Origin: Halobacillus massiliensis | Lineage (GTDB): Bacteria > Bacillota > Bacilli > Bacillales > Halobacillaceae | NCBI RefSeq assembly: GCF_900166625.1 | Contig: NZ_LT800499.1 | Span: forward strand, 1,608,429 to 1,672,428 | Length of the DNA: 64,000 bases | Reading direction: 5' to 3' | Shown: positions 2,879-5,129 of the stretch, piece after piece | Layout of the letters: every line of letters begins with the position of its first letter | Numbering within the stretch: the first letter of the stretch is position 1 | Made by a program: the position numbers and the translations under genes | The notes under the pieces: model-generated | The model's input: the letters and a program-made list of their open reading frames with translations, nothing else | Told to the model about the DNA's origin: nothing | The model's database searches: none

Positions 2879-3184
2879 ATGTATGTGGTCGATTCTACAG
2901 TAATAGTCCCTGAACATAAAGCAGACGATTTAATAGCAATTTATCAAAATCGCTCCAGACTTGTTGATGAAGCAGAGGGTTTTTTAACGTTTCAGTTGTT
3001 GCAAAATGATAAGAAACCTGGTGAACTTACCGTTCATATGGAATGGGAAGATAAGAAATCCTATCTTAAATGGGTAAGAAGTGAACAGTTTAAAAAAATT
3101 CATGAACTCGAAAAGAGATACCCTGATGAAGAACTACAGGGAATTGTGCCAGTAGTTAAGAAGTTCGAGGTTGTAGCCACATGA
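2879..3184 (+). CDS. ABM-fold monooxygenase (HmoA/antibiotic-biosynthesis-monooxygenase type)
   Basis: A 101-residue ferredoxin-like dimeric alpha/beta barrel (ABM domain). The typical pattern is present: an N-terminal beta strand, then GFLTFQLLQNDKKPGE, a strand ending in MEWED, and a helix with W65 and F71. Relatives include heme-degrading HmoA/HmoB and quinol monooxygenases; the substrate cannot be read from sequence. It is the first gene of a four-gene operon, with a 4-base ATGA overlap to the next gene, so it probably works with the cobalamin/STAS proteins downstream. A plausible promoter is TTAACA (near 2808) with TAAAAT (near 2833). Confidence 0.75.
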   Translation: MYVVDSTVIVPEHKADDLIAIYQNRSRLVDEAEGFLTFQLLQNDKKPGELTVHMEWEDKKSYLKWVRSEQFKKIHELEKRYPDEELQGIVPVVKKFEVVAT

Positions 3185-3546
3185 ATAAAAAAGAAAAAGC
3201 CTTACTTGTTGACCATATAGTTGAAGAGATTTATGACGCTTATCCGGATTTGTGGACCCGCTTTGGTCAAAACGGCCGGGAGCGTACAGAAGAGGATAAC
3301 TATCATCATCTGGATCATTTATATTCAGCTTATGAAATGAACAGCGCATCTTTCTTTCTAGAGTATACAGATTGGCTTTACAATGTCTTGACTTCAAGAA
3401 ACGTAGGGATTGAACTGATCATCGATAACTATACCCGTTTAATTCGTCATTTGCGCGAAGGGAAATGGGAAGACCCAAACGAGGCAGCAGCGTTTATTAA
3501 TTATTTGGAGTTAGGCTTAGAAAGACTGGAGAAGCTTTCTCAATAA
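3181..3546 (+). CDS. Small helical protein of the cobalamin/STAS operon
   Basis: A 121-residue, predicted all-helical soluble protein that I cannot assign to a named family. The most distinctive block is NYHHLDHLYSAYEMNSASFFLEYTDWLYNVL (residues 40-70, with a His pair and aromatic residues), followed by GIELIIDNYTRLIRHL. From memory, similar helical segments occur fused N-terminal to cobalamin-binding domains in other bacteria, which would make this a split sensor subunit; that is inference. It overlaps the monooxygenase stop by four bases and ends 12 bases before the TTG start of the cobalamin gene, so all are one transcript. Confidence 0.6.
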   Translation: MNKKEKALLVDHIVEEIYDAYPDLWTRFGQNGRERTEEDNYHHLDHLYSAYEMNSASFFLEYTDWLYNVLTSRNVGIELIIDNYTRLIRHLREGKWEDPNEAAAFINYLELGLERLEKLSQ

Positions 3547-3558
3547 GAGGTGATTCGT

Positions 3559-4218
3559 TTGACTCAACATCATATAAAACTGGCTCATTACTTACTTGAA
3601 GGTGACGAGGAAGGAGCCATGCAATATATTGAAGAACAGTTCCAGAAATACCCGCGTCTTTATGTATATGAAGACGTTATTACCCCTGCTATGTATTATG
3701 TAGGGGAGCTCTGGGAAAAGAATGAGATATCTGTGGCAGATGAACATTTAGCGACAGCAATTTGTGATTTTGTCGTATCCAAATTGGAAGCTAAATTGCC
3801 GAGTATAAAAGGGAACCGGCAGAAGGAATTTAAAGTGCTCTTATTCGGTGTGGAAGAAGAACAGCATTATATTGGATTAAAAATGGTCGCAGAGACATTT
3901 AAAGAAGAAGGATGGAGAGTCAGATATCTAGGCCCTAACTTAAATGTGGAACATTCACTTAATCAAGTGAGACGTTTTAAGCCGCATGTTATAGGCTTAT
4001 CGGCGGCTTTATCATACCGTCTTCCCACGCTTAAGAAGCTTGTGAAAGAGTTCCGTACACTAGAGTGGAAGCCATTAATAATGATTGGCGGCAGGATGGC
4101 CAGAAAATTTGAACTTGAAGAACTTGAGACGGATCAGGTTATGGTAGTCAAGGATTTAAATAACCTTCATCAATGGTTTAAAGAAGGAAGGGCAGGAATT
4201 ATCAATGAAACAAGTTGA
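3559..4218 (+). CDS. Cobalamin-binding, CarH-like sensor protein without a DNA-binding domain
   Basis: A 219-residue protein (TTG at 3559, after AGAGGTGAT at 3546-3554; a GTG at 3550 lies inside that ribosome binding site). Residues 1-80 form the helical cap domain, with the W-x9-EH signature (W52, E62, H63) that packs on the adenosyl group in the CarH/LitR photoreceptors. Residues 90-200 are a Rossmann B12-binding domain with ExHxxG (E101, H103, G106), GLSAALSY and MIGG. Unlike CarH there is no MerR domain, so output must go through a partner, most likely the STAS protein whose gene overlaps by 14 bases. Light or cobalamin sensing is inferred from the motifs. Confidence 0.82.
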   Translation: MTQHHIKLAHYLLEGDEEGAMQYIEEQFQKYPRLYVYEDVITPAMYYVGELWEKNEISVADEHLATAICDFVVSKLEAKLPSIKGNRQKEFKVLLFGVEEEQHYIGLKMVAETFKEEGWRVRYLGPNLNVEHSLNQVRRFKPHVIGLSAALSYRLPTLKKLVKEFRTLEWKPLIMIGGRMARKFELEELETDQVMVVKDLNNLHQWFKEGRAGIINETS

Positions 4219-4969
4219 TCGATCTTTTCCTTTGCCTTATTACGTGATAAATAAGAATTTTTTTATTCAATCTTATTCGAGACAGGTCAGTGATTTATGG
4301 GGAGATAATCATGAAAATCTTTTGGATATTATGGACGAGGAAAGCATAGACAAAGTTAAAAAATGGGTGGCTCCAGAGCTGCATCAAGCTTCCCTCGAAA
4401 TATATCTTAAGCCTTTTAATGATGAACTTGATCCTGTGCCCGCAGATATGTACGTAACTTGGAATAATGATTTATATGCAGAAATTATCTTTTTCCTTAA
4501 AGATGAAAAGCTGACAAAAGTTACGAAAACTTTGAATAATCTCCGTTCACGGTTAAACGATACGAATTTCGAGCTCCTTGAGGAAAAAGAAAAGCTCGAA
4601 GAAGTTATTGATCAGAACAACCGCTTGTCAGCGCCATTTATAGAGCTCACTAGTGACACCGCATTAATTCCATTGTTTGGTAATATTTCAAATGAGAAAA
4701 TGCTGTCGGTGGAGACCAATTTGTTAATGTCTTCTCAAAAAGAAGAAATGGATCGGTTGTTGTTTGATTTTACTGCAGTCGGTGAGATGGACAGAGAGGG
4801 AGTTCATGTGCTCACAAACATGATGACCTCTCTCTTTTATATGGGACTCGATATTATTATTATTGGAATTTCCCCAATGCAGGCAAAACAGCTGCACGAG
4901 ATGGAAATCCCTTCACAAGTAAGCTTCTTGAATTCTTTGCAGCAGGCAATTGAAAAATACTGTAAGTGA
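4205..4969 (+). CDS. PAS-like/STAS-domain regulator (RsbR-like), last gene of the cobalamin operon
   Basis: A 254-residue protein with three parts: a PAS-like N-terminal domain (about 1-105), a coiled coil (about 110-145, LRSRLNDTNFELLEEKEKLEE) and a C-terminal STAS domain (about 152-254) resembling the co-antagonist RsbR proteins of the stressosome (IPLFGNISNEKM, LLFDFTAVGEMD, ITGI-like IIGISPMQAKQL). At the position where SpoIIAA and RsbR carry the phosphorylated Ser/Thr, this sequence reads MDREG, so classical switching by phosphorylation looks absent. The start ATG lies inside the upstream gene, implying translational coupling. No cognate RsbT or RsbU-like gene is in the window. Confidence 0.75.
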   Translation: MKQVDRSFPLPYYVINKNFFIQSYSRQVSDLWGDNHENLLDIMDEESIDKVKKWVAPELHQASLEIYLKPFNDELDPVPADMYVTWNNDLYAEIIFFLKDEKLTKVTKTLNNLRSRLNDTNFELLEEKEKLEEVIDQNNRLSAPFIELTSDTALIPLFGNISNEKMLSVETNLLMSSQKEEMDRLLFDFTAVGEMDREGVHVLTNMMTSLFYMGLDIIIIGISPMQAKQLHEMEIPSQVSFLNSLQQAIEKYCK

Positions 4970-4983
4970 AATAAATAAATTTT

Positions 4984-5024
4984 AAAAAGCGAACCGTCTG
5001 GAAAAACAGGTGGTTCGCTTTTTT
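4984..5024 (+). terminator. Terminator of the cobalamin/STAS operon
   Basis: AAAAAGCGAACC pairs with GGTTCGCTTTTT across a 15-base loop, ending in a T run. It closes the four-gene transcript that begins upstream of 2879. Confidence 0.85.
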
Positions 5025-5129
5025 GATTAATGCATTTTGTGTTTATTATAGAAAAGTTAAGTTATTTGTACCACTTGTTGTGGAATAGAGGGAATAGAAG
5101 GAATTATATAATGGAAAGGAAGATAGATT

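Follow-up and report, generated by a model that had tools for sequence, protein, structure and literature searches.

Photoglobins and photocobilins have been described before, and gene pairs that encode globin and B12 protein separately are known from myxobacteria (PMC10151467). The photocobilins SasPcob and AbDPcob are single polypeptides in which a cobalamin (B12) domain with W...EH and E/DxH motifs precedes a bilin-binding globin with a contact Asp and Trp, AbDPcob having His in place of that Asp (PMC10979010). BBAG-2 and the myxobacterial globins are stand-alone bilin globins that occur beside a separate B12-binding protein, together with heme oxygenase and pre-PcyA (PMC10151467, the main text of which contains neither 'Bacill' nor 'Firmicutes'). 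A four-gene operon at positions 2879-4969 of a 64,000-nucleotide stretch of the Halobacillus massiliensis genome (the whole stretch is hereafter called the window) resembles both kinds of system. It differs from the photocobilins in having the globin and the B12 protein in two genes, globin first, in the added ABM gene and in a PAS-STAS output encoded by a gene of its own, and from the myxobacterial systems in that operons of this kind have an ABM protein, STAS, kinase or GGDEF outputs, and no Pfam heme oxygenase. Taking the evidence together, we consider it likely that genes 2 and 3 are a split photocobilin feeding the PAS-STAS protein of gene 4, with gene 1 supplying the tetrapyrrole. The four genes are as follows.

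2879-3184, + strand: gene 1, ABM-fold protein, IsdG/HmuQ/HmoB-like (open reading frame (ORF), Pfam ABM)
3181-3546, + strand: gene 2, stand-alone photoglobin, a predicted bilin-binding globin (ORF, profile and fold match to photocobilin)
3550-4218, + strand: gene 3, B12-binding (four-helix plus Rossmann) photoreceptor-type protein (ORF, Pfam, profile)
4205-4969, + strand: gene 4, PAS-coiled coil-STAS output protein, YtvA-like (ORF, Pfam STAS, AlphaFold 2, Foldseek)

As an earlier sequence-only reading of the stretch had proposed, the genes are closely joined, by an overlap of 4 nucleotides (nt) between genes 1 and 2, a gap of 3 nt between genes 2 and 3 and an overlap of 14 nt between genes 3 and 4. 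The ABM fold that it assigned to gene 1 is borne out by Pfam (ABM, 5e-15); the other Pfam matches are B12-binding_2 (2e-17) and B12-binding (4e-17) in gene 3 and STAS (1e-7) in gene 4. The ABM-globin-B12-PAS/STAS operon, its spread in the order and the swapping of its output were not found in the literature searched, which was mostly titles and listings; photoglobins reportedly take their name from Schneider et al. 2022, where some of the neighbourhoods may have been listed before.

Gene 2 gave no match in the Pfam and NCBIfam library scans, and six of its relatives yielded nothing but weak, unrelated Pfam matches, in two of the six. Gene 2 profiles of 30 and 36 rows, searched against 177,635 PDB sequences, both ranked SasPcob first (E = 0.018 and 6.6e-4; entry 8J2X), and phycocyanin also matched, not significantly (E = 1.1). 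The AlphaFold 2 model of gene 2 has five helices (predicted local distance difference test, pLDDT, 94.7), and its first Foldseek match is again a photocobilin (8J2W; template modelling score, TM, 0.77 by query), followed by a heme globin-coupled sensor and then by many phycocyanins with other heme globins interspersed; phycocyanins and smURFP are within the first 16 matches. The biliverdin contacts of SasPcob include Asp270 and Trp296 (PMC10979010). The numbering of that paper equals the 8J2X chain index plus 5 (Trp61, Glu71-His72 and His108 are index 56, 66-67 and 103 in our alignments), which places the two contacts at index 265 (D) and 291 (W), aligned to D39 and W65 of gene 2. Both residues are invariant in 51/51 distinct operon rows, in 49/49 rows that include one-gene photocobilins and SasPcob, and in 40/40 order-wide rows ('family', 'order' and 'phylum' being ranks of the genome collection used). 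What had been described merely as a helical protein is thus, by profile, fold and D39/W65, a photoglobin, i.e. a predicted bilin-binding globin related to phycobiliproteins. Position 36 is Thr in the window (TEED), as in SasPcob, and Cys in 29/40 order-wide globins, giving a C-x-x-D comparable to the CXRD of phycobiliproteins and the CXQD of photoglobins (PMC10151467).

Gene 3 contains the motifs G52-x2-W55-x9-E65-H66 and E104-x-H106-x2-G109 (residues counted from GTG 3550), and Pfam finds B12 domains only, with no MerR DNA-binding domain; on both points the sequence-only reading was right. CarH and LitR have the same kind of adenosylcobalamin-binding module, with its Trp, Glu-His and ligand His, but carry an N-terminal MerR domain that gene 3 lacks. 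CarH chains were matched by the single gene 3 sequence, and none came within the 1e-8 limit of the search with the family profile (28 rows), which has photocobilin SasPcob as its best PDB match (8J2X, E = 1e-19). Genes 2 and 3 thus share SasPcob as their best PDB match. W55 is kept in 49/52 rows (3 gaps), and E65, H66, E104 and H106 each in 51/52 (1 gap); W55 and E65-H66 correspond to the adenosyl pocket and H106 to the lower ligand, and binding of B12 is predicted. The SasPcob-type E/DxH is also present, and H135, kept in 48/52 rows, is aligned to SasPcob His137, which touches the biliverdin propionate of the other monomer (PMC10979010).

The four-gene arrangement is widely conserved. Gene 2 was detected in 39/44 family genomes, and all 30 of the loci examined among these 39 have the four genes on a single strand and in the same order. 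The window's genome shares its genus with G025, whose locus does not differ, over the stretch compared, from that of Halobacillus andaensis (NCBI order Caryophanales, phylum Bacillota). Named genomes were scanned as well, although records near the window's own genome may be left out there, and the operon order was found in 44/44 loci, from Halobacillus, Pontibacillus, Thalassobacillus, Virgibacillus, Sporosarcina, Salsuginibacillus, Evansella, Marinococcus and a Bacillus. The two sets overlap and combine to 52 distinct operons; because all 52 have the same order, the arrangement is not due to chance, and the search for this order in relatives that had been suggested as a check places it far beyond the one strain. 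Genes 1 and 2 overlap by 4 or 1 nt in 74/74 loci and genes 3 and 4 by 14-20 nt in 73/74 (starts picked by alignment). Moreover, a close gene 4 relative (E = 1.5e-85 or better) occurs in exactly the 39 family genomes with gene 2, i.e. the two are jointly present or jointly absent in 44/44 genomes. In the five genomes that lack gene 2, gene 4 matches reach E = 3e-18 at best, and G008, which is among the five, has a distant full-length relative. Gene 3 is spread over two reading frames in three loci (L002 from G033, L006 and L066); in L002 residues ~88-134 are gone, the cobalt-ligand motif included, and both a real loss and an assembly error are possible.

In the phylum sample the globin profile matched 14/398 genomes: the window's own, G311 (L102), G438 (a broken locus, L113) and 11 with a globin-B12 gene. 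In these 11 distant Bacillota genomes the globin forms the N-terminal half of a single protein, in the same order as gene 2 and gene 3. Together with the SasPcob matches, this makes a split photocobilin the best reading of the two genes. The partners scanned beside the one-gene photocobilins are hybrid histidine kinases (L103, L106 and L109) and GGDEF proteins (L107, L108 and L111), none of which was matched by the gene 4 PAS profile at E = 0.01. An ABM relative lies directly upstream in only 1/10 neighbourhoods (L105), the eleventh (G419) being covered to 1.5 kb only. The one-gene protein of L108 has a weak Pfam Phycobilisome match below the cut-off. In G132 (L110, 5995-8940) the globin-B12 gene is interrupted by ~1.8 kb of extra DNA with a 475-residue ORF. 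The G438 locus (L113, 3748-4748) is a decayed copy in which STAS fragments are spread over two ORFs and globin fragments over both strands, and no B12 or ABM match was found within 9.5 kb.

Within the order, the globin profile is present in 160/397 genomes and 50/135 genera. For locus comparison, 40 of the 160 were hand-picked from 38 genera, at least two of these loci being already counted elsewhere. ABM adjoins the globin in 40/40 loci, as a piece only in two (L150 and L151) and in two frames in two others (L152 and L158). A B12 gene lies near the globin in 28/40, accompanied by PAS-STAS in 22, by a PAS-histidine kinase in two and by no such match in four (L157, L165, L169 and L174); in L157, which is identical with L200, the globin is followed by a GGDEF gene that matches PAS weakly (E = 4e-4). 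Among the 12 loci with no B12 gene nearby, 11 genomes (all but G522) carry a stand-alone B12 gene elsewhere, and in 11/11 of these (one gene examined in each) the next gene encodes a PAS protein of the gene 4 type. Six of these proteins have STAS, the one of L188 in two reading frames, and five a short tail only. The count covers one B12 copy each in G765 and G487, where there is a second, and one of the globin copies in G659. There are accordingly two tight gene pairs, ABM-globin and B12-PAS output, which are usually joined. This pairing is our best evidence that the PAS half of gene 4 receives the signal of the B12 protein. In the short PAS proteins (L189, L193, L197, L198 and L199) a tail without any Pfam family over the cut-off replaces STAS and is possibly a further output type. 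Several genomes of genus g307 (e.g. G475, G511 and G683) have two globin matches.

The AlphaFold model of gene 4 has a PAS-like order of strands and helices at residues 12-98, a helix at 101-140 (pLDDT 51-61) and STAS at 152-252. The first Foldseek match is full-length YtvA (2MWG, E = 3e-10), followed by the Listeria stressosome, and the closest folds are YtvA and RsbR/RsbS. YtvA, a LOV-STAS protein, has the same PAS-coil-STAS layout, but its flavin-binding LOV cysteine is absent from gene 4, which has no Cys in residues 1-100, and the NCBIfam YtvA score is 57 against a cut-off of 250; light input to gene 4 would come from partner proteins. The claim that STAS is the output is supported here, where a PAS-coil-STAS gene is tied to the B12 gene, but does not apply generally, as elsewhere the PAS is joined to a kinase, GGDEF or a short tail. 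With 12 STAS matches, an rsbR-S-T-U-V-W-sigB-rsbX-like cluster (L119; sigB by NCBIfam, the others named from order and sequence) and a YtvA above the cut-off (L101), the window's genome has a stressosome route available, and judging from the sequence it is plausible that gene 4 feeds a stressosome-like switch. STAS, SpoIIE and PP2C partners have been predicted for SasPcob (PMC10979010). The same genome encodes a CarH-like MerR-B12 protein (L118, below the NCBIfam cut-off); together with YtvA and the rsb-sigB-like cluster, this indicates that several types of light sensor may coexist.

Gene 1 lies near IsdG, HmuQ and HmoB in the ABM fold (NCBIfam HmuQ, 5e-11, with 42.7 bits where the cut-off is 130). 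Heme-degrading monooxygenases of the IsdG type use an Asn-Trp-His catalytic triad, and the Trp and His are shared by gene 1 as W65 and H75, each kept in 49/49 rows and, order-wide, in 35/40 and 38/40, respectively, with two gaps each. The Pfam heme oxygenase (PF01126, the one heme-degrading family covered by the search) was found in 0/44 family genomes, 39 of which have the globin, and in 0/40 order-wide genomes; controls matched in 3/14 known genomes, and where a genome has a one-gene photocobilin or the three-gene form, 4/12 have a match. The tight link of ABM to the globin in genomes with no such match makes gene 1 a candidate source of the bilin, as its putative maker, modifier or carrier. 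A canonical heme oxygenase as the bilin source of the operon genomes was thus looked for and not found, with 0/84 PF01126 matches in genomes of the order.

The likely mechanism can be outlined as follows. Genes 2 and 3 would encode one photocobilin divided into two polypeptides. The gene 3 protein would bind adenosylcobalamin with His106 as lower ligand and Trp55 and Glu65-His66 around the adenosyl group, while the gene 2 globin would hold a bilin with Asp39 on the pyrrole rings and Trp65 against the corrin, so that docking of the globin on the B12 protein would bring the two pigments into contact. The Co-C bond would then be broken by light, green where B12 is the absorber and red where it is the bilin; the B12 dimer would rearrange, and the PAS domain of gene 4 would read the change. 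The coiled coil would relay the signal to STAS, a switch of the YtvA/RsbR type whose most likely role is to join the sigma-B stressosome or to tune it. The likeliest task of gene 1 is to produce, alter or deliver the tetrapyrrole of the globin. This explanation builds on observed homology, fold, conservation of motifs and operon, and output swapping, from which we infer pigment binding, photochemistry, protein contacts, the stressosome link and the reaction of gene 1.

A different arrangement, in which a lone CarH-like B12 sensor drives PAS-STAS and the globin and ABM form a separate heme- or bilin-handling pair that happens to share the operon, seems unlikely to us. A lone CarH-like sensor was what the sequence-only reading had proposed, and it was demoted on the photocobilin matches of genes 2 and 3, from which a split photocobilin with B12 and bilin is the best reading. 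The 12/40 order-wide loci with ABM-globin and no B12 gene nearby would suit such an arrangement, as would the pairing of B12 and PAS without an adjoining globin gene; however, a B12-PAS pair is present elsewhere in 11 of these 12 genomes, the corrin-facing Trp65 is kept in 12/12 of the ABM-globin-only loci, and both the single globin-B12 gene of 11 genomes and the co-occurrence of gene 2 with close gene 4 relatives across 44/44 family genomes connect the globin with the sensor. It is quite improbable, too, that the globin acts in the manner of globin-coupled sensors or the RsbR globin, as a sensor of heme, oxygen or redox state, and that the B12 protein responds to cobalamin supply instead of light. 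The invariant bilin-type Asp and Trp, the Cys of C-x-x-D in 29/40 globin relatives, the profile matches to photocobilin and (not significantly) phycocyanin, and the GxxW and EH of gene 3 all speak against a heme or redox sensor, whereas the heme-degrading ABM fold of gene 1 and His42/His43 of gene 2, which are invariant in 51/51 rows and could ligate a metal, speak for it. So do the second-ranked Foldseek match of gene 2, a heme globin-coupled sensor, and the fact that two of the four elements of the published light-responsive B12 signature (GxxW, EH, GxxH and GxxxP; SignatureFinder, PMC11796333) read differently in gene 3, which has ExxH for GxxH and GxxxN for GxxxP, although the P is present in 37/52 gene 3 rows. 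A third alternative, in which gene 3 carries methyl groups as a corrinoid protein of an enzyme system and gene 1 is its oxidative partner, is suggested by a profile match to corrinoid protein 1Y80 (E = 1e-13) and by NCBIfam methyltransferase corrinoid models that match below the cut-off. We regard this as very improbable, given the photoreceptor Trp and Glu-His of gene 3, the PAS regulator as its close partner in most loci, and the lack of a recognised methyltransferase gene beside it among the neighbouring ORFs scanned.

The last two features of gene 2 and gene 3 cited for a heme or redox sensor are also among the observations that weigh against a split photocobilin with a PAS-STAS output. 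The single gene 2 sequence has only a marginal PDB match (E = 1.7), which covers residues 233-314 of SasPcob, there labelled 'cobalamin-binding protein', and its Foldseek E-values are weak (best 2.5e-2, none below 0.001); with Thr at position 36, no covalent bilin link is expected in the window's globin. The gene 4 model has a mean pLDDT of 80 and a predicted TM of 0.46, leaving the relative domain placement uncertain, and its YtvA match is loose over the full length (TM 0.41, root mean square deviation 14). Gene 4 shares the STAS domain of the stressosome subunit RsbR but, at the positions of the RsbR phosphorylation threonines T171 and T205, has N163 and R197, variable over 52 rows; as in YtvA, there is no Thr at either RsbR site. 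Some loci lack part of the set: G311 (L102) has ABM-globin-B12 without a PAS/STAS match nearby, L165 and L169 have B12 but likewise no PAS/STAS match, L174 has only an RsbR-like STAS upstream, and in G522, with ABM-globin, the B12 match is only of the CarH type. Furthermore, Pfam heme oxygenase (PF01126) is absent from the window's genome, and gene 1 has Ser6 in place of the catalytic Asn of IsdG, HmoB and HmuQ (48/49 distinct rows, 39/40 order-wide). This Ser calls for caution, as does one other ABM protein of the genome (L120), in which Asn, Trp and His are seen by eye and because of which gene 1 is not the sole candidate.

It may further be, and we propose this tentatively, that the two pairs form a self-contained two-pigment light-sensing kit of Bacillus-like bacteria, with [ABM-bilin globin] and [B12 protein-PAS output] as exchangeable parts. 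Starting from heme, and with no need of heme oxygenase, ABM would make or finish an unusual bilin and load it on the neighbouring globin, the globin would dock on the B12 protein, and the PAS adapter would lead to a stressosome, a kinase or cyclic-di-GMP depending on the lineage. With the globin in 160/397 order genomes, sensing of red and green light via B12 and bilin may be common among Gram-positive bacteria that do not photosynthesise. If so, cells would have a second light input beside the blue-light sensor YtvA, and there would be natural two-part photoreceptors with exchangeable outputs; it also raises the question of how bilin is supplied in organisms without a recognisable canonical heme oxygenase.

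Four further features mark the borders and signals of the operon.

2700-2748, + strand: terminator-like hairpin at the left border of the unit, 3' of the upstream baeRF-family gene (fold -22.3 kcal/mol, z -6.4, 0/200 shuffles as good)
2809-2838, + strand: promoter-like site TTAACA-18-TAAAAT with TG before the -10 (consensus scan)
3547-3554, + strand: putative ribosome-binding site for the likely TTG start (3559) of gene 3 (from sequence)
4983-5028, + strand: intrinsic-terminator-like hairpin at the operon end (fold -23.2 kcal/mol, z -6.7, 0/200 shuffles as good)

In the first pattern scan the left hairpin was listed in part and the right one was absent; both were found by folding against shuffles. 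For gene 3, the TTG at 3559, with AGGTGA before it, appears likelier as the start than the GTG at 3550. The consensus scan found 10 promoter-like sites in the upstream region versus 11.2 in shuffles, i.e. no excess, and by eye only, no sigma-B-type promoter was seen upstream of the operon. An element like TATGATAAAATA is seen by eye at the matching place upstream of the operon in many relatives. The operon is preceded by a baeRF family 5 gene at 1883-2689 of the window, with the terminator-like hairpin in between, and a relative of this gene lies upstream of the operon in 27/30 family loci.

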